Below are positions 18,841 to 36,586 of a DNA stretch of 40,572 nt, in pieces (position 1 is the first letter of the stretch; each line of letters opens with the position of its first letter). The DNA is from an uncultured Opitutia bacterium. GTDB lineage: Bacteria > Verrucomicrobiota > Verrucomicrobiia > Opitutales > CAJWYM01. The position numbers were made by a program, and so were the translations under genes. Where the stretch lies: the NCBI GenBank assembly GCA_913049555.1, contig CAJWYM010000032.1, forward strand, positions 1-40,572, read 5' to 3'. A model generated the notes under the pieces. The model saw only the letters and a list, made by a program, of their open reading frames with translations, was not told the DNA's origin and did no database searches.

Positions 18841-21800
18841 TCACTGGTCCTCTAAGATCCATCGAAAGTCGATGATTTTCAATCGTCTTCCGAATTTATC
18901 ATTCAAACTATCTTTTGAAGGCAACTCATGAGGCTCCAATGAGTAGTCGATGTATTCAGGAAACCTTTGAATTGTAGCCTCACACAATGCCTTAGACTTG
19001 ACTTGATTTTGAAACTTTACCTCTCCGTAGGCTCGAAGTTTGAAAGTATCTCCTCGAGTGGTCATGATCGGGGCCAATGCTCGGATAATATCTTGTTGCT
19101 TCAAAGTTCCAGGCAATCCTGACAAACTATTTTCATCCACACTGCTTTCAAAGATTGGCGTGGGCATATTGCTGTAGGAACTGAAATTCTGGGTGGAAGA
19201 GACCTCGTTGTTAATCCCGCTATTTCTAATAGCCGCCTCAAGAGTTCCATAATCAATATTATTATCAATATCTCTATTGATAAACTCACCTAAGGATCGA
19301 GTGGGAGCTTTTCTAAGCTGGGTTCGTTTCTTTATTTCTTCGACAATCTCCCCTGCCAAAGTATCCATTTCCTTATCAGATACAGACAAATAGCCGCTGT
19401 ATTGCTTGCCAGCATCCCCCCATAGAGAATTCAATTCTAGACTTGGAACAAAATTATGAAAAAAAGGAGTCTTTTCTTCTTTTATTTCGTAGGGCTTTGA
19501 GTCATAGGAATCAATGACGACTCCATCCCTCCAGGACCAACTCATGGCATTGACTGATAAATCTCTAAAACCAGATAAAACCGCCTTCCATGCCTCTTTA
19601 CTAAAGGAATTCACATTGAAAGGCCCATCAATCATTAGATGAGAGGCGGCACGATTGAACCCTAATTCGCCCACACCCTCATAAAAGTCTGAAGCCTTCG
19701 GATTTCCATAGTAGAGAAATCTAGTATTCGCTAATGGCTTGCCTTGTTGAATGTATTCATCATCAAAACTCACTCCGTAAGGAAAAGTTGTCTTTTTATC
19801 CCGAACATTACTCGCTCCAGATTCAGGCTCAGGAACTGTGGATAAAAAATAAGGATCGAACAGAGTATTGTTATAAAGATAAGACAAATCGTATCTACTT
19901 GGCATCCCATCCAAATTCGATGCATCCATGACCTGTGAAGAATCGAAGGAAATGGGTTTTAGAGAGGATCCTATCGGTCTTGATGGAGATCCATACGTCC
20001 AAGGAATGGGACAATGAGCAAAATCTCCCATAGAAATTAAAGGGTGCCTAGGAGCATCATACAAACAAATGCGATTGAAACCATTCAATCCAAACTCTCC
20101 CCCATAAAATCCATATCCATCATAGGTTGGAGGAAGAGCGTCGGAAGACAGAGTTTCTATATCAGAAATGAGACCCACCTCTCCATAGTACATTGCAGAA
20201 GGCGCATTGGTAAAAGAACCCAATCCACAAGCAGTAGGACAAATTTGGGAGAAAATGGGCACCTGCATATCTATACTTGAATTCGTAGTAAAAGTTCTAA
20301 TGTCATGGGCAATAATAATACTGCTAGGAATATCATTCATAGCTCCAGCAGTGCCCGATAAGAATTCAGTCTCCCCCGATGGAAAATTTACAATAAACTC
20401 TTTGCCATCGGTGGCATTGGTTGTCGAAGAGATCTCTAGATCCATATTAGCACTATGGTTATTCCTTTTCTCAACGACTATGGAAATCAAATCTCCGCTT
20501 TGAAATACATGGACATCCGTCTCTTTCTCCGTGGAATTAATCTCATTGTAAACACCGCCTTTGTAAATTACAGCTTGATGATTTTGCTCAGAAACTACAG
20601 AGCCCGGTTGCCGAAGAAGAAATAAACCTTCCCCCTTGGAGATTTTATTCCCGTTCACCGTCCATCGAATAATGACCCGATCGTCGTCTCCGACAATCGG
20701 AGAGATTGTAGACTCTGATGGCGGCTGATCATAAGAAATATCATAGTCCCAATCATAACTGTTTTTCTGAAGTGCAAGCACCCAGACAGCACCCGGTGGC
20801 ATGACTTTTCCAGCATTATAAAATTGACCACCCTCCTGAAGAGTCTTTGCATCCAAAATTTTCCATCGAACATCTCCCCCTTGAATCACATCATCAGCAG
20901 TTCCAAAAGTATTGTCGTTCCCTCTATGATTCCCGTCCAAAGAAGTTTTCAGATTGAAACTAGTCACAGTAACACCATTCCTTTTAACCTCGATTGGAAT
21001 TCTGATTGCACTCACGAGCTGCATGTAGGCATCCCCACTAATTAGAATCCCTTGATTGTTTTTATATTTCTCTAAATCGATTGGGAAGTTGTAAGGATTC
21101 CACAACATGAAAGAAGGATGCAAAGTGAATTCTAAATAATAATTATTGACTGCATTTCCTAAATTATCCACGTAGGTAATAGGACGCGTTCGAGCAGAGA
21201 CTTTTATGGTTGCTCTGATTAAGACCGGCTTGACAGTGTTTGTATTGAGATTGTTGTCATAAAAGTTTTCCGAGGGATCAGAATATTTATACGGAGAGCT
21301 GAGCGAATTGTATCGGATTCCGGCACGAAATCCCCCATATCTTCCTGGGCTGTTTAACCTCATCATCATTTTAGCATCGGAGCTTTTCACATTGTCCAAA
21401 CCATGATACTGAACTCCAGTATATCCAGTCTCTTTCACAAGAAAGTCATCTTCACTTCGATAAGAATTATAAAAATCTCTAAAAACTTTCCAATGCTCTC
21501 CATAAACTTGAGTTCCGGATAAAATCGTTTGATTGCCCGCATTCAAGTCCACTCGATTGTCTTGTCTGCTTCCACCAACTCCCTCAGTAAATACCTCCAA
21601 ATACTCATTGCTTAGAGCTCTTGACAAATCCTTTCTCAAGCCTCCATCTCTATTGTTGCTAATTACTCCCCTAGAAAAAACAGTGAAATGATTGTTAAAA
21701 TAGGTGAACTTCTCTCCGTGTGAATCTCCAGGGAGTGAGTTCAAATTAAGATACCCACTATTCACCAAACCCGAAAGGCTGTAAATTTTCTTGATCGTTT

Positions 21801-22581
21801 CCTCAAAATCAGAATGCCCCGTGTTATAATTGGAGAAAGGAGCCTGATTTCCTACTTGGAACAACAATGGATTGGCTCCCGGATATACAGACAATCGCCT
21901 ACTAGAATCTACCAATGCCAATTCATGGCTTGTATTGATTACATTTCCATTCCCATCCTTAGGAACAAAGGAAGCATGAACTGGAGCAAGATTCGCTTTG
22001 AGAGATTCATCTTGAGCAACCCATGCATAGGAACCAGATAAGTTCTGCTCAGAACCCCAAAGATAAACCCGCTCGCCTTTCAATGATTGCGGATTTTGCT
22101 CAGAGGGCGGATCTATTTTGATCAAATCCACAGCGTCTACCAATACATCCTCCCTCACTTGATTGGAAGAAAATAGTTTCTCCAATTTCGTGGCTTTCAT
22201 AGAGATCAATGGATGAGGATCATAATTTTCAATTGGATTTGAGTGCCAGACAATTGTGTAAGGATTGTTCTGATCCTCTAAACTGTCTGCTCTGCAAGTG
22301 ACTCGCTGATCGGGCCCTAAGCTTTTCTGCAATTCCGCAACAGCTATCTTAAGACCAGCAATCGCATTCAATTTAGCAAGTTGGGTGCTTCTATGATTGG
22401 AACTGCTAGACATCTCAATGGATATCAAATGCGACATTGAAACCATCAACAATAATAGAAGAGATGCAAACAACAAGGACAGGATTAAAGCAAAGCCTTG
22501 ATTCTTAGGGTTGGACCGAAACTTGAATAGATAGGAAGGATTGGTTGATCTAGAATGGGAGACTGAAGTAAAAGGTTTCAT
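18841..22581 (-). CDS. Verru_Chthon cassette protein A, giant prepilin-like protein
   Basis: About 1246 residues from the ATG at 22581; the frame could begin at TTG 22623. Near the N-terminus, NPKNQGFALILSLLFASLLLLLMVS is a basic segment followed by a hydrophobic helix, resembling PilX/GspK-type prepilins with a G-F processing site. The long exported body contains segments such as HPSFMLWNPYNFPIDL, YSGYLSVSDKEMDTLAGEIVEEIKKR and a C-terminal FRILEAYGEVK-like stretch, which match my memory of the Verru_Chthon cassette A family known almost only from Verrucomicrobiota. Function is unproven; it is thought to belong to a pilus- or secretion-like assembly. The usual B, C and D cassette partners are not adjacent. 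Two secreted paralogues are divergently encoded. Confidence 0.75.
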   Translation of the reverse strand: MKPFTSVSHSRSTNPSYLFKFRSNPKNQGFALILSLLFASLLLLLMVSMSHLISIEMSSSSNHRSTQLAKLNAIAGLKIAVAELQKSLGPDQRVTCRADSLEDQNNPYTIVWHSNPIENYDPHPLISMKATKLEKLFSSNQVREDVLVDAVDLIKIDPPSEQNPQSLKGERVYLWGSEQNLSGSYAWVAQDESLKANLAPVHASFVPKDGNGNVINTSHELALVDSSRRLSVYPGANPLLFQVGNQAPFSNYNTGHSDFEETIKKIYSLSGLVNSGYLNLNSLPGDSHGEKFTYFNNHFTVFSRGVISNNRDGGLRKDLSRALSNEYLEVFTEGVGGSRQDNRVDLNAGNQTILSGTQVYGEHWKVFRDFYNSYRSEDDFLVKETGYTGVQYHGLDNVKSSDAKMMMRLNSPGRYGGFRAGIRYNSLSSPYKYSDPSENFYDNNLNTNTVKPVLIRATIKVSARTRPITYVDNLGNAVNNYYLEFTLHPSFMLWNPYNFPIDLEKYKNNQGILISGDAYMQLVSAIRIPIEVKRNGVTVTSFNLKTSLDGNHRGNDNTFGTADDVIQGGDVRWKILDAKTLQEGGQFYNAGKVMPPGAVWVLALQKNSYDWDYDISYDQPPSESTISPIVGDDDRVIIRWTVNGNKISKGEGLFLLRQPGSVVSEQNHQAVIYKGGVYNEINSTEKETDVHVFQSGDLISIVVEKRNNHSANMDLEISSTTNATDGKEFIVNFPSGETEFLSGTAGAMNDIPSSIIIAHDIRTFTTNSSIDMQVPIFSQICPTACGLGSFTNAPSAMYYGEVGLISDIETLSSDALPPTYDGYGFYGGEFGLNGFNRICLYDAPRHPLISMGDFAHCPIPWTYGSPSRPIGSSLKPISFDSSQVMDASNLDGMPSRYDLSYLYNNTLFDPYFLSTVPEPESGASNVRDKKTTFPYGVSFDDEYIQQGKPLANTRFLYYGNPKASDFYEGVGELGFNRAASHLMIDGPFNVNSFSKEAWKAVLSGFRDLSVNAMSWSWRDGVVIDSYDSKPYEIKEEKTPFFHNFVPSLELNSLWGDAGKQYSGYLSVSDKEMDTLAGEIVEEIKKRTQLRKAPTRSLGEFINRDIDNNIDYGTLEAAIRNSGINNEVSSTQNFSSYSNMPTPIFESSVDENSLSGLPGTLKQQDIIRALAPIMTTRGDTFKLRAYGEVKFQNQVKSKALCEATIQRFPEYIDYSLEPHELPSKDSLNDKFGRRLKIIDFRWILEDQ

Positions 22582-22893
22582 TTGGGGCAGTTTAAATTTT
22601 TCACAAAAGAAACCTGAAGTCAACGGGGATTGAATACGCAGAAAACAAAAATTTTGAATACAAGAATTGAGCTCATTAAGGGATCATTACAACCTACAAA
22701 ATACCGATACTTCCAGATTTTTACAATGGTTCATCACGTCATAATGATGTCCACTTACGATTGTAGCATTGTTTAACAGTAACCTGTCATATCAAGACAT
22801 TGAATTTCCCTAATAACTCCACTATCCTGACTCTCTTTTTATTTGTATTTATCAAAAACAAGTTTATAAGCTATCACTGTTTGTAATTACCTC

Positions 22894-25657: not shown

Positions 25658-28600
25658 TCATTTCATTCTTTTCCAAGCTTTGGCTGGAATCTTCTTTAAA
25701 ATAGGATCATCACCGGGACGCATTTCATAAAGTAATTTCGATCTATGGTGGGCTTGATAATAATATATATCTACGCGATGGAGTCCTTTCTTCAATCCAA
25801 TATAATCATCTTTAATCCAAGGATCATAATCACTGCTTGAGTTCAATTCAACGGCACTTTGACCATCAATCAACAAATGAGATCCATCATCCGAGTGCAC
25901 TTTAATATTATACACCTGATCGGCTTGAATATCCAGATATCCTGTTAAATGAAGCGCATAATTTTCATTGCGTCCAATTTTTTTCTGAATCGAGTCCAAA
26001 ACGATTTCATTCGACACTCCTTTTTGATCTAAATGTCCCCTACCCAATTCCTTGAGGGAGGAAAAATCTGGCAACCGCTTTTGTTGAGGAGGAATTTCAT
26101 AAGCTACAAAGTCCAATCCTGTTTCCAAAAGACCTCTGTCAATATCTGCAGCCGGCAACAATTCGGTGTCCTCAAAAGTCAAATCAAAAGGCAGGTAGGA
26201 AGAACCCTCATCCCCAAATGCCCGAAATCTAAATTCGGTGGTATTTGTGATTTCAATCCCTTGATCCGGAAAAACCGGAGATTTGGTATCGGGAACACTT
26301 CCATCCATCGTGTATCTAACAATTGTTCCAGGAGTTAAATTCTCCGCCTGAACAAGAGTAGATTTATGAAATATTCTCGTGCGAGGGGTTGCCCATATCA
26401 GAGACTTATGTGATTTGTTCTTCTGAGCATTCAAATGAAGTTCTGCGGACATATTTGCAAATGCTCCCTCATTTGTTTCTTCAAAAAGCATCTGTCCAGA
26501 ATCCTGTTCCTTTACAAAACTTCCTTTTTTGCCTAGAAGATTCCGATCTTCAGGATGAATTTTGATAGCATTTTTATTCATTGGAGAGCCCGACAAATCC
26601 ACCTTTAAATGGTAAGCATTGTCCTCTTTTTCACGAGAAACATGGGCACGAACCCAATTTGTTTTACCTTCCAAAACGACTGGTGTGTAGGTCTCTATAA
26701 AATCCCAACTCGGTGGCAGATTAGGAGCCACAGTGAAAGTGCTTTCCGGGATCGAATAATCAATGCCTGCCAACCACTCAATCATAGGACAAACCAGAGC
26801 AATATCCCAATTGTAGTACCGAGAACCCCAACTTTTATGATCGGATTCCCAAGCCTCAGGCGCTACTGGGTATCCCCATTCACGAGTCATCCCTTTAATA
26901 TGGTTGAGAATGGTTAACATTCCTGGATAAGGTCTTTCCTGTCGAAACATACCATCCGCTCCCAACCAAAGTGAGATCGTAGAACACCGAAAAATCCCAT
27001 TTGGAGGGGAGTCTGCAGCGCGTGTGTTGATCCCAACTGGGGACATGAAACCCACCTCGGTGTCCATGACATGCTTATCAATCATCTCTGCTCCCCATTC
27101 TTTAGGCATGGCATCAGACTGCAATGCAACTAAGGCCCAAATATCCTTCCAAGGTGTATTTTTACCTCCAAAAAATCCATCCCACTGGCCGGACCAACGA
27201 TTTTTAAAGGATTTAATATTATTTTTACGGAAATTTTCCCATTGAGCAATGTCATCAGCATAACCCAGAGTTTTGGCCATCTTTTGGAGGTCATTGATCG
27301 CATTGATCTCAATCCCAAAAGTAGGAGTCGGTCCTTTTTTATCTAAATAAAGAGGTTTAAAAACTTTGGTATACACTTCTTCCAAATAACTTTTATCTCC
27401 CGATCTTCTATACTGCTCCCATGCGGGTTCTACAGTTCCCGTAAATCCCATAAAAGCATCCATACTACGCCACTCTATACCAAAATTATCGGGCATTTGA
27501 TTGGCTTTATTTTTGAAAGGAACCATAAATTGCCAGGATAAAATGTTGCCATGTCCGTAGGACCATTTATCGGCAACCCAAGAACCTGCTTGGGTATAAG
27601 CCCAAGAGTCCCACAAATGAAGACCCATAAAATTATTAATCGCAGTCTGTGTATGGGGATATTTCAAATAACCCTCTTCGATGTCTCTAAAATACATGAA
27701 GTAAAGGGACCAAAGGTAATAATAGGTTTTTACAGACAAATCGTCAGAACAGCGAAAATAAGGGATCTGTTGATTCAACAAATCGTTCATGTAAGTAGTT
27801 TTGCCATCGAGAGATTTTTTCGGCGCTTTCAAAACCTTTTTGGCAGCAGCAATCGCGTCCTCCAACTCATCCGCTACCGAATAAGTCAAAGTGACTGGTA
27901 TCCCGGCTGGTATTTTTATCTTGAATGAAAAAAGTACATTTCCATGCTTCTCATCCCTATCAAACTTTGGATTTTCAATCGGAGCGTCCGAACTAATCAC
28001 AAAATCCAGACCATTGTACATGAGATCGCCTGTTACAACTGGCTTCTTCCACTCAGTCTTCACAAAAATCTTAGCATTCTCTTCAAAGTGAATCGCGTTG
28101 TTTGCTTTATCAAACTCAATTTTTGTTTTGTTTCCACGCATCATTGGCTCTGTTGGGTCATCCCCATCAAATCCGGGAACATTTTGCTTCATTGCAAAGC
28201 TTTCACCATCAAAAACGATTTCTATATCTTTATCAGAAGTAATGATGTCTGTTAAAACATCGTTTTCACTGATAAATTTTTCCTCTTTGATACGAACCCC
28301 ATCAATGTTGTATTCTGTAATCTGTCTATCAGGTCGCCAATAATTTTTTTCTGCGCGAGGATATTCGTACGATTTGCCATTCAAAATCAAGGTTCCTTTC
28401 GCACCTTTATTGTGTCTGTAAAAGTCCCAGCCCCATTTATCATGTCCAATCCCTGTTCGTTCATCTTTGACAATTCCATAACCTCGAGCTCTTCCATCTC
28501 TAAAAATAGGGTGAGTAAAACCTAAAGTTTCAAATTCAAAATGTTTGTCCCATTCAGCCGCACTTTTACCAGATACGTAGTACAGTTTGTTGCCTGCAAG

Positions 28601-28777
28601 AAAACCATGGTGTTCCCCTTCGATGTCTCTTTCCAACATCTTGCAATAATCCTCAAAAGGAGGTTCTGATGTATCGATTTCCTTGGAATACTTAGAGTCA
28701 GTTGGGCCCGAACAAGCAGCCACACTTACAATGACAAAGAGCGAATACACCCATGCATATTTTTTTTGTTTATTCAT
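25658..28777 (-). CDS. Large lipoprotein with glycosidase-like core, CHB_HEX_C-like and PA14-like domains
   Basis: About 1039 residues from ATG 28777; an in-frame GTG at 28801 would add eight. It has a lipoprotein signal peptide with lipobox SVAAC (Cys 22), so it is probably membrane-tethered outside the cytoplasm. A beta-rich N-terminal domain precedes an alpha-toroid region (about 330-700) with NNFMGLHLWDSWAYTQAG, GYPVAPEAWESDHKSWGS and YYNWDIALVCPMIEWLAG. These recall six-hairpin glycosidases such as GH63 and its relatives. Near residue 800-870, VRYTMDGSVPDTKSPVF is a chitobiase C-terminal-like motif. The last 130 residues (IKVHSDDGSHLLIDGQSAV and GLHRVDIYYYQ) are PA14-like. The precise GH family and substrate are not known to me. 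It follows the GH127 gene closely. Confidence 0.75.
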   Translation of the reverse strand: MNKQKKYAWVYSLFVIVSVAACSGPTDSKYSKEIDTSEPPFEDYCKMLERDIEGEHHGFLAGNKLYYVSGKSAAEWDKHFEFETLGFTHPIFRDGRARGYGIVKDERTGIGHDKWGWDFYRHNKGAKGTLILNGKSYEYPRAEKNYWRPDRQITEYNIDGVRIKEEKFISENDVLTDIITSDKDIEIVFDGESFAMKQNVPGFDGDDPTEPMMRGNKTKIEFDKANNAIHFEENAKIFVKTEWKKPVVTGDLMYNGLDFVISSDAPIENPKFDRDEKHGNVLFSFKIKIPAGIPVTLTYSVADELEDAIAAAKKVLKAPKKSLDGKTTYMNDLLNQQIPYFRCSDDLSVKTYYYLWSLYFMYFRDIEEGYLKYPHTQTAINNFMGLHLWDSWAYTQAGSWVADKWSYGHGNILSWQFMVPFKNKANQMPDNFGIEWRSMDAFMGFTGTVEPAWEQYRRSGDKSYLEEVYTKVFKPLYLDKKGPTPTFGIEINAINDLQKMAKTLGYADDIAQWENFRKNNIKSFKNRWSGQWDGFFGGKNTPWKDIWALVALQSDAMPKEWGAEMIDKHVMDTEVGFMSPVGINTRAADSPPNGIFRCSTISLWLGADGMFRQERPYPGMLTILNHIKGMTREWGYPVAPEAWESDHKSWGSRYYNWDIALVCPMIEWLAGIDYSIPESTFTVAPNLPPSWDFIETYTPVVLEGKTNWVRAHVSREKEDNAYHLKVDLSGSPMNKNAIKIHPEDRNLLGKKGSFVKEQDSGQMLFEETNEGAFANMSAELHLNAQKNKSHKSLIWATPRTRIFHKSTLVQAENLTPGTIVRYTMDGSVPDTKSPVFPDQGIEITNTTEFRFRAFGDEGSSYLPFDLTFEDTELLPAADIDRGLLETGLDFVAYEIPPQQKRLPDFSSLKELGRGHLDQKGVSNEIVLDSIQKKIGRNENYALHLTGYLDIQADQVYNIKVHSDDGSHLLIDGQSAVELNSSSDYDPWIKDDYIGLKKGLHRVDIYYYQAHHRSKLLYEMRPGDDPILKKIPAKAWKRMK

Positions 28778-28804
28778 AATTAATTTACTTTGATATTTCA
28801 CTCA

Positions 28805-31234: not shown

Positions 31235-31294
31235 AATTTTCTCCAACAAATTGTTCTTTGTTTAAATTCTGTGTTAAATTCCCAAATAGCAAAA

Positions 31295-31385
31295 ATACCC
31301 ACTTCTTCTATAAATTTGAAAGTGTCATTCCAATTTCAATGCGAGTTTGTAAAGCTTCGAAGATCGAAAGAAACGCAGTGGGTAT
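31295..31385 (-). promoter_or_regulatory. Foldable leader of the GH127 operon
   Basis: In the - strand transcript, ATACCCACT (from 31385 to 31377) can pair with AGTGGGTAT (31303 to 31295), a perfect 9-bp stem. An inner TTCGA/TCGAA pair (within 31350-31372) lies inside, and a U-rich stretch (TTTTGCTATTT) follows. It ends about 60 bases before the GH127 start codon, as an attenuator would. No known riboswitch class is recognised. Confidence 0.4.
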
Positions 31386-31440
31386 AAAGGCTAGTTTTGA
31401 CATCAATTAATTTCTGGGTTCAAAAAATTTTAATTAAAGA

Positions 31441-31468
31441 ATTATACTTGAAATAAAGATATTTTCAA
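31441..31468 (-). promoter_or_regulatory. Sigma-70-like promoter for the GH127 operon
   Basis: On the - strand TTGAAA (31468-31463), a 16-base spacer and a perfect TATAAT (31446-31441). Transcription would start near 31434, leaving a leader of about 200 bases before the GH127 ATG at 31234. The leader contains the 9-bp inverted repeat described separately. Confidence 0.5.
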
Positions 31469-32254
31469 TGTTTCGCTTCGCCATAAAAATGTCAAATAAC
31501 GACAAAAAAAGCAGATAAAGAATATTTTAAAATGGAAAAAATATGAAAACGCTTGCTCTATACACCTTCAAACGCCTTTTTAAGGAAATGTTTCAAGATG
31601 ACATCGGAAGACTTTCTTTTTATCGAAGCGAACATTTCGAAAATGAAGAATCCACCCTGCAATCCAAAGATCTCGTTTTTTAGGATTTTTAAGGCACCCA
31701 AAAATATTTGAATAAATCCTCTAAGAAGTGAGCGCAAATACGATAAATTCAGAATTCATTTTTTAAACGAGAATCTCAACTATTAGGGGTCTTAGAAGCA
31801 AATTTCGAACTCTTTATTCTAAAAAACCATGCTTCAAGAACCTAAAAAATGAAACGCACGAAGCGTATTTTTTAAGCTCCATAAAATTCCATTTTTAAAA
31901 TAAAAAGCAGTAAAGATCGATTTTCTAAACAATGTGTTCCAATCTATTTACTGATCTAGATTTTCATCCAAAGTCTAATCCTGACATTGTAATGAAAAGG
32001 ACTTAAAAAATGGATTCCATTCTCCTCCGCACTTGACAAAAATCGAGTTCAAGGATTTTCATAAAATATGTCAGACTAAAAGTTGAAGCAAGTAATCAAA
32101 GTTTTAGCGAGGAATTTAGATTCAAAATGGAATCCTGTAAATTCAATAAAACCCTTGTTTTAAATCCAGAATATTGGATAAAATTAAGTAAAAATAGATT
32201 ATAAATTAATAAAGAAACTCTTGTTTTTCCAACATTTTATAGAAGTGAATCGGA

Positions 32255-34066
32255 TCATTTTTCAGTAGGAACCACGATTCCCCTAAGAATGACATTCTGA
32301 CACAATACAAAAATGATCAAAGTTGGGATTGCAGCAATCATCAAAGATGCATAAACAACCCCTTGGGATGAAAACTGCTGCAATTGATACAACCATACAC
32401 TCAAGGTCCACATATCTTTATCCTGACAAAGAATAAAGGCATACATAAAATTAGAATAGGCAGCATTGAAGGCTCCAAGAGCAATGACCGCTAAAATCGG
32501 TTTGGAAAGATTCATCGTTATCATCCAAAACTTTTGCCACTCATTGGCCCCATCAATATCTGCAGCTTCAAACAATTCCTTGGGCAAACTGTCAAAGAAC
32601 CCTTTGAGTAGAAAAATAGAATACCCATTCGCCATCGATGGTAACAACAAAGCAAAGAAGGTATTCAATAATCCTAAATCTCGTAATAACAGGAAATTCG
32701 GGATCATTGCCACAACTTCTGGGAAAGCCATGGTAGCAATCAAAAATAACAATATCTTGTATTGCCCAGAAAGATTGTATCTTGACAGTGCATAAGCAGC
32801 GATTGGGTTCACAAAAAGAGCCAATCCAATTGAAGACAGACAATAGATCAGTGTATTCTTAATCCCGCTCCCATAGTAAAGAATGTACTCCAAAACCATG
32901 AGATAATTGTTACTAATAAATCCCCATCTGATTGTGCTTTCATTCTTTAAAACATACTCTAAATCCACTAACTCCTGAGGCATTCCCACTTTATTCAAAT
33001 TCTCAAACTCTTTACCAAAAGATGCAGACAATGAAGAAGCATTCCCATATTTACTGTTTAAATACTCTCGCCATCGAATCTCAGGGGTATCTAAAACGAG
33101 TGCCTCTTTTGGACATTTTTCAGGGTTGGATATAAAAAGAAGAAAATCAGACAAATGGGAAGAGGCTGTTAATTTATCCACAGGAAAAGGAACCTCTGAG
33201 AAATTACTGAAGGAAACACTGTAGAGCTTATTCAAATAGCTCAAATCCTTATATTTTTCTTTTAGAAAAAGAGACCAGGAAGGCCGGTAACTTTCTTCCA
33301 CTATAATAAACTGAGGATGAAGAAAAGTCCTGACATAGTTTTCCCATGCTGCACTGTTGGATCGAGGTGGTAAAAAGTCCCCCCCTTTGCCATTCCAACT
33401 TAATTTCACATATTTTCGGAATGCACTGTCACAAGATACATAAATGCGATCCTTTAGCTCCAAGGTGTCCTTAAATTCATAAAATGCTTGAATCAATCCT
33501 GAACCCCCAAGTTGATACTTTCTATCCGTCAACCTTTCAGGAGGAAATTTTAAGAAAAACCAACTCTCCAACGGTTCTTCGAAGCGCTCCTGAAAAACAG
33601 CCAAATCTCCACCACACAAATCCGTCACGTAATTCCGGAAAGCTCTCTCATTGTTTTGAATAATTTTCCCATCAGAAGTCGGACCAAAAGCTGTCAAGAA
33701 CCATCCAAGAGGAAGCTCACTTGTTGCAACAAAATCCACCCAATCCTCTAATAAAGCAGGGCTTGTTTCAGGAAGATCCACTTGCCGGAAATTTCTCACA
33801 TTGTTTCCCGATGCATCATTGTACTCTTGCGGGGCCTCATTGTACTTGCTCTCGATGTACTTGCGGTAAAGCATCGACTCATCATGCCAATACCTTGGGA
33901 TGATATCTAAATCCTGGACATCCAAACGACTCTTAAAAGATCCAGAAGCCATCAATAGAAATGGGTATACCATACTTACAGACCCAAATGCTAGTATAAT
34001 ATACAACAAAAGGTATATCAACCTAGAACTCGTTTGCTTTTTCTCAGATTGTAATATTACAGGCAT
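32255..34066 (-). CDS. Carbohydrate ABC transporter permease (MalG-like) with large periplasmic insert
   Basis: A 603-residue inner-membrane permease. The first helix (about 17-39, IYLLLYIILAFGSVSMVYPFLL) is followed by ASGSFKS, as in MalG-type proteins. The next helix does not come until about 385; ordinary relatives total about 280 residues. The C-terminal part is a complete permease with the EAA loop LPKELFEAADIDGANEWQKFW (about 493-514), which contacts the ATPase. The roughly 330-residue insert contains several copies of a 35-residue unit, consensus W/F-x-x-Y/F-L/V-x-x-K-Y ... L-N ... F-x-x-F-x-x-V-x-x-P, at about 66-100, 143-177, 264-298 and 332-366. It overlaps nothing and starts three bases after the fused permease gene, its partner. 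No ATP-binding subunit is in the window. Confidence 0.9.
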   Translation of the reverse strand: MPVILQSEKKQTSSRLIYLLLYIILAFGSVSMVYPFLLMASGSFKSRLDVQDLDIIPRYWHDESMLYRKYIESKYNEAPQEYNDASGNNVRNFRQVDLPETSPALLEDWVDFVATSELPLGWFLTAFGPTSDGKIIQNNERAFRNYVTDLCGGDLAVFQERFEEPLESWFFLKFPPERLTDRKYQLGGSGLIQAFYEFKDTLELKDRIYVSCDSAFRKYVKLSWNGKGGDFLPPRSNSAAWENYVRTFLHPQFIIVEESYRPSWSLFLKEKYKDLSYLNKLYSVSFSNFSEVPFPVDKLTASSHLSDFLLFISNPEKCPKEALVLDTPEIRWREYLNSKYGNASSLSASFGKEFENLNKVGMPQELVDLEYVLKNESTIRWGFISNNYLMVLEYILYYGSGIKNTLIYCLSSIGLALFVNPIAAYALSRYNLSGQYKILLFLIATMAFPEVVAMIPNFLLLRDLGLLNTFFALLLPSMANGYSIFLLKGFFDSLPKELFEAADIDGANEWQKFWMITMNLSKPILAVIALGAFNAAYSNFMYAFILCQDKDMWTLSVWLYQLQQFSSQGVVYASLMIAAIPTLIIFVLCQNVILRGIVVPTEK

Positions 34067-34069
34067 AAC

Positions 34070-36586
34070 TTAATTTTTTGCTGTGGTGAAACTCATGTTA
34101 GAAATACGCTTCATTTGAAACATTGTAAGCCCAATCAAAAAGAATCCTAAAATCCAAGCGATTGCGATAGCCACTCCAAATCGAAGGTAAACGTAAGCGT
34201 TGTAAAAGATCTCTAATCCAATTACGTGCGTTGCAAAATCAGGCCCCCCAGCGGTCATGACCAACACGTTGTCAGCAGACTGAAAGGCACCTATCAATAC
34301 AAAGATCATTTGAATCATGACCAATGGACGAATGGTCGGAAAAGTAATGTGCCAAACTCTTTTGAAAAACCCAGCACCATCCAAAGCGGCAGCCTCATAC
34401 AAGTCCTCTGGCACGGTCTTTAAGGCAGCCAAATAAATCAAGCAACCTGGTCCCAAACCTGCCCATGCTAGTGGGGTTAATATAGAAACCATCGCCTGTG
34501 ATTTATCCTGCAACCACTTCTGAGGTCCAAAATCTAATATTGCTAATACTTGATTCAAGGTTCCTGATTCACTCGGGTCAAAAAATATTTTCCACATCAA
34601 CATTACAATCAAACCAGAGACCAAAGCAGGCAAGTAATACAAAACCCGAAAAATTACACTCCCTCTAGGGATTTCGCTCAAAATAACCGCCAATACAATT
34701 GGAGGAGTAAATATAAGTAACATACTCCAAAACACATACTCTCCAGTGCGGAACAAAGACAACCAAAATACATTGTCGAACAGAACCGCAGCAAAATTAT
34801 CCACACCAACAAAGGCAGAACCTCCAATTACGTTGAAGTCTTGGAATGCCATTTTAGCACCCACCAACAATGGGTAGTAATCGAACACAAAAACTGCCAA
34901 CAACGCAGGTGTCATAAGGACATAGGCAATCCAAGTCTTCTTAAATCGTTTCTTAAAACCGACTTTTTCACCTCCACCCCCTCCAGAAAATAAGCGCCAT
35001 ACATAAACACTGAGTCCAATAAAGGACAAAGCGACCAAGCTCATAATTACAAAAGCAATCTTTCTTCTAAATGACTGAACCTCTGGGGGGATCTGTCCAA
35101 GCATTTTTTCATTAATTTCGCCTACAGCCTCGTCATACAATTCTTGAAATCGAGAAAGCCGAGCCTCTTTATCTGGATTTCGAGGAAGATTCTCTGCAAA
35201 TGCAGTTTGTAGAGGTTTACTAGCACGCTCGATGTATACTTGACAGTTTTCTCCGTAGGGTTCGGGTAAAGAATGTTTTAGGGAATACTGCAAAGTTTCT
35301 ACCCATTGCTTGGGCACTGTCCGGACATAATTGTCATATCCATGTCGCTCCAATTTTTCTGGATTTATATAACTACCGTATCCGTTTTCAACATAGGTTT
35401 TAACAACTACTTTTTCCGCTTCTTCGCTTCCAACAAATCGCAAAAATTGAAAAGCCGCAGCACGCTTTTTGGGATCTTCAGTCGTTGCGCAAATTCCCAA
35501 ACCCCGAACATGCAATTCCGTGATCGAGTGACCCAAAGGACTTTTAGGGATAGGAACAATTCCCAATTCCTCAGGGTTCATACTAGAAATCAAAGAATCT
35601 TGGTTGATAAGTGTGTCATTAATGTAGAGCAAGGCCATTCCAATTCGACCCTTTTCCCAAATCGACCAACCATCATTGCTTACCCCCACTCCATATCTCT
35701 TTTTGCCCCCTTTACCGACCCAAGGACCATCGACTAAGTTGCAATAAAAATCTGCAGCTTCAATTCCCCCCGCATCGTTGAACTTGGCAAGCCACTTACC
35801 GGTTTCTTTTTGTCTTTCAACCACCTGTGAATTCATGGAGTAAAAGAAGGGTAAAGAGGTCCATCCAGCCCCTCCCTCTTTTCCCAAGATAATACCATAG
35901 CGTCCAACTTCAGGATCTTGTATAGCGCGAGAAACCTTTAATAATTCATCCCAAGTTTTAGGGTAGGTGCTGTCAGGATCTAAACCAGCCTCGGCAAACA
36001 CCGTTTTATTGTAAGCCAACACCCTGACAAAATAATTAAAAGGTAAGAAATAAAAATGACGTTTTCCCTCAGAATCCACTCGCGATACAGCATCCCAAAG
36101 TTGTGGACGAACTCTCCTCTTCAATTCATCCAGATACATGATATCAGGATCATAAGTTCCAAGAGTTTTCGCTTCTGAAGCCGTAATCTCAGAATTGATG
36201 TAATCATCCAAAGGAACCAAAAAATTACGACCTATATAACTCCCAGACTGCCTCGTATTAACGTGGATCACATCAGGAGCCGTTTTACCAGCAATAGACA
36301 TCAAGAGAGGGGCCTCACCCGCTGGACCTTCAAGTTGAAGGGAAAGCGCATTGCCCTCAGGGTAAATATTTGGATATTTATCACGAAAAGCTTGATAAAC
36401 GGCCATATCTGCTTTGCCAGAAATATTAAAAGCTCCATCAGGACTCGGCGCAAAATCAGTCGTTTTAATTACAACCGAATCCTCTGCTCGCAAACTGAAA
36501 GACACTATAAAAAATAATAGTACCTTCAAAAAGTTGTGCGTTAGACTCGCAAGAGTATTTGCAATGTTCATTTGTTTAACCTTCAT
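34070..36586 (-). CDS. Fused sugar-binding protein and ABC permease (MalF-like)
   Basis: An 838-residue fusion. Residues 20-34 are a signal-like helix ending FSLRAED. Residues about 35-500 are a family 1 extracellular solute-binding protein (PDVIHVN, FLPFNYFVRVLAYNKTVFAEAGLDPDS, TWDELLKVSRAI, EKGRIGMALLYIN). A helix at about 508-530 and a glycine-rich linker (SGGGGGEK, 534-541) lead to a MalF-type permease (about 550-825) with TWIAYVLMTPALLAVFVFDYYP and EAA loop EDLYEAAALDGAGFFKRVW (727-745). The binding protein is therefore fixed to its channel. It lies between the regulator gene (70 bases) and the second permease (3 bases). Substrate is probably an oligosaccharide from the glycan attacked by the neighbouring enzymes (inference). 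The start is ATG 36586 or ATG 36571. Confidence 0.93.
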   Translation of the reverse strand: MKVKQMNIANTLASLTHNFLKVLLFFIVSFSLRAEDSVVIKTTDFAPSPDGAFNISGKADMAVYQAFRDKYPNIYPEGNALSLQLEGPAGEAPLLMSIAGKTAPDVIHVNTRQSGSYIGRNFLVPLDDYINSEITASEAKTLGTYDPDIMYLDELKRRVRPQLWDAVSRVDSEGKRHFYFLPFNYFVRVLAYNKTVFAEAGLDPDSTYPKTWDELLKVSRAIQDPEVGRYGIILGKEGGAGWTSLPFFYSMNSQVVERQKETGKWLAKFNDAGGIEAADFYCNLVDGPWVGKGGKKRYGVGVSNDGWSIWEKGRIGMALLYINDTLINQDSLISSMNPEELGIVPIPKSPLGHSITELHVRGLGICATTEDPKKRAAAFQFLRFVGSEEAEKVVVKTYVENGYGSYINPEKLERHGYDNYVRTVPKQWVETLQYSLKHSLPEPYGENCQVYIERASKPLQTAFAENLPRNPDKEARLSRFQELYDEAVGEINEKMLGQIPPEVQSFRRKIAFVIMSLVALSFIGLSVYVWRLFSGGGGGEKVGFKKRFKKTWIAYVLMTPALLAVFVFDYYPLLVGAKMAFQDFNVIGGSAFVGVDNFAAVLFDNVFWLSLFRTGEYVFWSMLLIFTPPIVLAVILSEIPRGSVIFRVLYYLPALVSGLIVMLMWKIFFDPSESGTLNQVLAILDFGPQKWLQDKSQAMVSILTPLAWAGLGPGCLIYLAALKTVPEDLYEAAALDGAGFFKRVWHITFPTIRPLVMIQMIFVLIGAFQSADNVLVMTAGGPDFATHVIGLEIFYNAYVYLRFGVAIAIAWILGFFLIGLTMFQMKRISNMSFTTAKN

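Follow-up and report, generated by a model that had tools for sequence, protein, structure and literature searches.

The MalG-like permease described here carries about 330 extra residues in its first periplasmic loop (P1), and these residues are made of five related units of about 70 residues each. In the window, which is the whole 40,572-nucleotide stretch of DNA analysed, its gene adjoins an upstream gene for a MalF-like permease with a fused binding protein. By analogy with the E. coli maltose importer, we see about an even chance that the P1 domain serves as the platform on which the tethered binding protein docks, which is our best explanation.

The MalG-like gene encodes 603 residues as an open reading frame at 32255..34066 (minus strand, like all features of the two permease genes given below). 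TM1 covers residues 12–42 (33941..34033) by hydropathy and as a helix of the AF2 model, and the next hydrophobic transmembrane segment does not come before residue 405. The AF2 model places helices at residues 376–398 and 400–429 after the insert. In comparison with an insert-free MalG of 280 residues from a genome of the same order, the extra stretch is flanked by SFK (residue 45) and NNY (residue 386); only these flanks were used, because MAFFT scattered the short loop through the insert. Hydropathy, the AF2 model and the insert-free MalG agree on an insert in P1 at residues 58–385 (32912..33895), as the sequence-only reading of this DNA had claimed when it put about 330 residues between the first and the second helix. 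The insert is periplasmic by topology. The permease core follows at residues 387–603 (32258..32908), with the Pfam domain BPD_transp_1 at 428–589. This domain was matched in both subunits (47.8 and 48.5 bits, cut-off 26.4), and both have an EAA coupling loop that is conserved among relatives (EAADIDGA in the MalG-like and EAAALDGA in the MalF-like subunit). The loop of the MalG subunit, EAADIDGANEWQKFWMITM (32513..32569), was located by sequence and by the residues that are invariant among relatives. The closest solved relatives of the MalG-like core in sequence comparison are AlgM2 and MalG.

The partner gene encodes 838 residues (34070..36586; ORF and Pfam). Its fused solute-binding protein spans about residues 35–500 (35087..36484), with a match to SBP_bac_1, the family-1 solute-binding proteins, at 94–391 (9.8e-29) and to PDB 6rjy over residues 63–489. 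The tethered binding protein expected next to the MalG-like permease is thus present in the neighbouring fused gene. The tether is an extra transmembrane helix at residues 507–535 (34982..35068), identified by hydropathy, and the MalF-like core follows at 546–838 (34073..34951). Among solved permeases, the P2-less AlgM1 and SugA matched this core over the full length, whereas E. coli MalF matched only from residue 261 onward. A passage of PMC3150292 places the P2 domain of E. coli MalF at residues 91–271. The MalF here therefore lacks P2. The closest solved permease by both sequence and fold is the alginate importer AlgM1M2 (PDB 4tqu, 4xtc), which, unlike the system here, has neither a P1 insert nor a fused binding protein. 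No MalK-type ATPase was found in the window operon; the genome holds 59 ABC_tran matches, and ABC_tran together with OB_MalK occurs near some relatives. In the fused MalF of Lentisphaerota (L020, L023, L025 and L034), an extra hydrophobic stretch was seen in the permease core (A4 columns 1000–1200), and none was seen in the window clade.

The five units were delimited by profile comparison as U1 (residues 58–121, 33704..33895), U2 (122–205, 33452..33703), U3 (206–251, 33314..33451), U4 (252–321, 33104..33313) and U5 (322–378, 32933..33103). U4 is the best match to the unit profile and contains a GH42-like stretch at residues 260–313, and U5 continues into TM2, consistent with the AF2 model. 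When the five insert pieces from 36 relatives were compared profile against profile, all ten unit pairs matched, with scores of 26–70 and E values from 1e-5 to 3e-15. Controls with permuted alignment columns scored at most 17, which rules out that the repeats arise by chance. Each unit runs in the order short strand, helix A, helix B, 3-10 turn, proline and helix C, with the rough consensus RVD-P-A-x3-YRxFLxxKYGxIxxLNxxYGTxYxSFxEVPLPxxxP..G....DWxxFVxxxLP. Four 35-residue units had been proposed earlier (residues 66–100, 143–177, 264–298 and 332–366). These are real, being the conserved halves of U1, U2, U4 and U5, but the units are in fact about 70 residues long and five in number, and U3 had been missed. 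The D-W-x-x-F-V motif, formerly read as a spacer, is actually helix C of the same unit. U3 is degenerate in the window clade and complete in Lentisphaerota relatives. The number of recognisable units per relative is mostly five and ranges from 4 to 8, which suggests that units were gained and lost over time, and in some lineages the insert is shortened to about 200–270 residues. The MalG of one locus, L059 (4114-7563, plus strand), has about 880 inserted residues with at least seven recognisable units; the binding protein of the matching fused MalF includes a stretch rich in Cys.

The insert alone was predicted as a compact fold, with a mean pLDDT of 93.7 and a pTM of 0.89 over 323 residues. 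This prediction and the conservation across phyla rule out a disordered, clade-specific or poorly conserved insert. Foldseek with the whole permease gave permeases alone among the matches listed, and the insert was therefore folded separately. Searched against the PDB, the insert had no match at E 0.001; the best one reached E 0.095, and the weak best matches were clan-A glycosidases in local alignment, with a TM-score to the query of at most 0.18. The unit profile against PDB sequences matched the GH42 beta-galactosidases 9ta3 (1.6e-8) and 1kwg (4.1e-7 over residues 156–218), and also GH167 and a GH50 agarase, while the whole-insert profile gave a weak GH14 match. Pfam assigns GH42 (PF02449) to the window permease at 6.4e-5 over about 60 of 376 model positions, and to 30 of the 36 relatives with E values of at most 0.01 (best 4.7e-20), so the resemblance to GH42 pointed out by the sequence-only reading is borne out. 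By sequence, the kinship of the unit with GH42 and other clan-A glycosidases is confined to one sub-element, which follows the acid/base strand (residues 156–218 of 1kwg), and the whole domain has no counterpart. In contrast to GH42, the sub-element occurs here alone and in about five copies, with neither the TIM barrel nor catalytic residues. The acid/base and nucleophile glutamates of GH42, which flank the 1kwg segment 156–218, are both outside it, and the insert units carry no catalytic residue; the Pfam label on these permeases is misleading for this reason. A genuine GH42 fusion was rejected, as Pfam coverage, the unit profile and Foldseek all gave a sub-element only and no complete (beta/alpha)8 barrel.

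Relatives of the insert were found in Puniceicoccaceae/Opitutia, Lentisphaerota, Kiritimatiellota, Phycisphaerales, Armatimonadota and Hydrogenedentota bins. The isolates Lentisphaera marina and Oligosphaera ethanolica are among the carriers. The search elsewhere proposed by the sequence-only reading thus found the insert in several phyla, including the window phylum and Planctomycetota, and Armatimonadota and Hydrogenedentota carry it as well. In the window phylum, the insert profile was matched in at least 112 of 388 sampled genomes; these counts are lower bounds, since the sweeps scored no more than a few top candidates from each genome. The majority of the matches fall in other classes, and within the window class itself the distribution is patchy (at least 4 matching genomes in the phylum sweep, and the full-length form in 3 of 52 genomes). 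The copy of Lentisphaera marina is 59% identical to the window copy. This identity and the patchiness suggest, at the level of sequence, that the insert-bearing gene moved between classes.

The insert goes together with one clade of fused MalF. Where the DNA upstream of a family locus can be read, it nearly always holds the fusion as the adjacent gene (in L056 in broken frames), and in the outgroup L063 the MalG is insert-free and MalF is unfused. The phylum sweep gave at least 114 insert-bearing MalG loci; the fused MalF was directly upstream in 84 of them and elsewhere in the genome for 24 more. In families f48 and f58 of the window phylum, both genes are present though apart. No fusion was listed for six genomes of the sweep; in four of them the fusion matches are broken or weaker, which leaves two (G376 and G417). 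In Armatimonadota, where the best few candidates were scored per genome, a single insert-bearing MalG was found in each of the 18 genomes with the fusion clade, beside as many as 16 ordinary paralogues. This MalG is often far from the fused MalF, in several cases by 90–650 kb. A second, divergent type of binding protein–MalF fusion (801–927 residues) adjoins an ordinary MalG of about 300 residues in Armatimonadota (L207–L213), and none of the three genomes with this type alone had an insert-bearing MalG among the best few candidates scored. These loci rule out that every fused binding protein demands the insert; the insert goes with one fusion clade and not with fusion as such. The co-occurrence is partly due to shared ancestry. 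In the loci examined, the repeats were found in MalG and never in the fusion protein. A third fused system, in Armatimonadota (L244–L246), has an unrelated stretch of about 110 residues in the same MalG loop. This stretch is probably beta-rich and has no Pfam match. The MalG proteins of these loci (L244:1320-3056, plus; L245:1256-3175, plus; L246:1093-2817, minus) form a distinct family with extra N-terminal transmembrane helices, and adjoin a MalF that includes a fused binding protein's C-terminal end.

As a docking platform, the insert would work in a MalFG-type (CUT1) ABC sugar importer in which the extra transmembrane helix joins the binding protein to the MalF-like subunit. The rigid P1 domain of about five units on the MalG-like subunit would hold the tethered binding protein over the translocation path, most likely gripping the lobe that faces MalG, and would thereby take over, on the MalG side, the role of MalF-P2 in E. 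coli. In the passages of PMC3150292 that bear on this, E. coli MalE interacts with MalF loop P2 and MalG loop P1, the MalE N-lobe being mainly the MalG contact (its refs 88, 89), P2 is said to bind MalE, and Daus et al. 2007 is cited by title for the contact of MalG P1 with MalE. MalF P2 in MalFGK2 (PDB 2r6g) is likewise a large domain in the periplasm, and it too belongs to an outer loop of one of the MalFG subunits. The domain here differs in that it is in P1 of MalG, mainly helical and built of repeats, with MalF lacking P2, and neither sequence nor fold searches found a resemblance between the insert and P2. When both membrane domains were controlled, insert distances followed binding-protein distances (partial r 0.47–0.50, bootstrap 5–95% 0.09 to 0.64–0.67), whereas the correlation with MalF core distances was about 0 and that with MalG core distances was weak. 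This mirror-tree signal is modest, with a wide interval. Docking is favoured by the absence of P2 from MalF, the large domain in MalG P1, the pairing with one clade of fused MalF even where the genes are unlinked, the confinement of the repeats to MalG, the tracking of distances and the P1 stretch of L244–L246, and the predicted rigid fold is also in line with it. It is weakened by the ordinary MalG beside the divergent fusion in L207–L213, which shows that a binding protein can be fused without the domain being present, and by unit number and insert length, which vary more than a fixed surface would suggest. The sequence-only reading had offered docking or glycan binding. Of these, docking is the better supported, because the insert is periplasmic, occupies the loop through which E. 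coli MalG contacts MalE, and accompanies a binding protein fused to the partner subunit, while positive support for glycan binding ends at the glycosidase-related unit.

That the insert itself binds glycan, its glycosidase-like units capturing oligosaccharide and passing it to the tethered binding protein, appears unlikely. The kinship of the units to a clan-A glycosidase sub-element, the aromatic content of the insert (15.9%) and the nearby GH127 and sulfatase genes would fit. However, glycosidase ancestry alone does not establish binding, the related GH42 segment is free of catalytic residues, and the domain search matched no carbohydrate-binding family to the insert. The most strongly conserved positions are mostly repeat consensus (L, N, F, W and D), and for this reason the strongest conservation looks structural; K69, E72, R182 and R246 are conserved positions outside this consensus. 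We consider very unlikely the specific form in which the P1 domain, multiplied from a glycosidase sub-element, would be a glycan-capture module, keeping long or sulfated oligosaccharides next to the tethered binding protein and giving the importer a capture surface of its own in the permease.

The insert might also ensure that MalG pairs only with its own fused MalF, which would matter where paralogues are many and genes unlinked. The single insert-bearing MalG of Armatimonadota genomes, unlinked from its partner amid up to 16 ordinary ones, and the weak correlation between insert and MalG core distances speak for such an assembly or fidelity role. It is nevertheless quite unlikely, as the domain is large and periplasmic whereas subunit pairing runs through the membrane core, and the insert tracks the binding protein instead of the MalF core; such a role would also be compatible with docking. 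We give only a slender chance to the insert being a spacer, or an anchor to peptidoglycan, to the outer membrane or to some other partner in the periplasm, for example a glycosidase. Unit numbers of 4–8 and inserts of up to about 880 residues resemble repeat domains that adjust length, but the five-unit insert is predicted to be compact, five units are kept in most relatives, and the neighbour genes vary, so that no fixed further partner is apparent.

OpuA and GlnPQ belong to other importer families. Their binding proteins are likewise tethered to the permease polypeptide, but the system here is a carbohydrate CUT1 system, with the fusion at the MalF N-terminus and the P1 repeat domain on the second subunit. 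Pfam places a GH127 gene downstream of the permease gene and a sulfatase nearby. The substrate may be an arabinose-containing oligosaccharide, a guess by analogy, because the best full-length PDB relative of the binding protein is an arabino-oligosaccharide-binding protein and because of the downstream GH127 gene; the tally of neighbour genes across relatives was too varied for naming a substrate. Between the permease and GH127 genes, about 1 kb of the window (31250-32254) contains no ORF longer than 60 residues and is perhaps a decayed gene. The same cluster as GH127 includes a 1047-residue protein (25658-28801, minus) with C-terminal CHB_HEX_C and PA14 and a large N-terminal part to which no domain was assigned. 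A 1260-residue ORF at 18841-22623 (minus) had no Pfam match at 1e-5.

The sequence-only reading had spoken of a new transporter design. Neither Pfam nor NCBIfam has a model for the domain itself, its whole fold has no match in the PDB, and the open-access literature searched gave no description of it. In this respect it is new; the importer as a whole is a variant of the MalFG (CUT1) design. If the docking explanation is true, a tethered binding protein on one subunit and a repeat docking domain on the other would make a widespread, undescribed sugar-importer architecture of Verrucomicrobiota (with the lentisphaeral and kiritimatiellal lineages) and Armatimonadota. It would show how a transporter has built a tandem repeat from a glycosidase sub-element, and it warns annotators that Pfam labels these permeases as GH42 enzymes. 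It also poses a testable mechanistic question, namely what a permanently tethered binding protein needs for docking.
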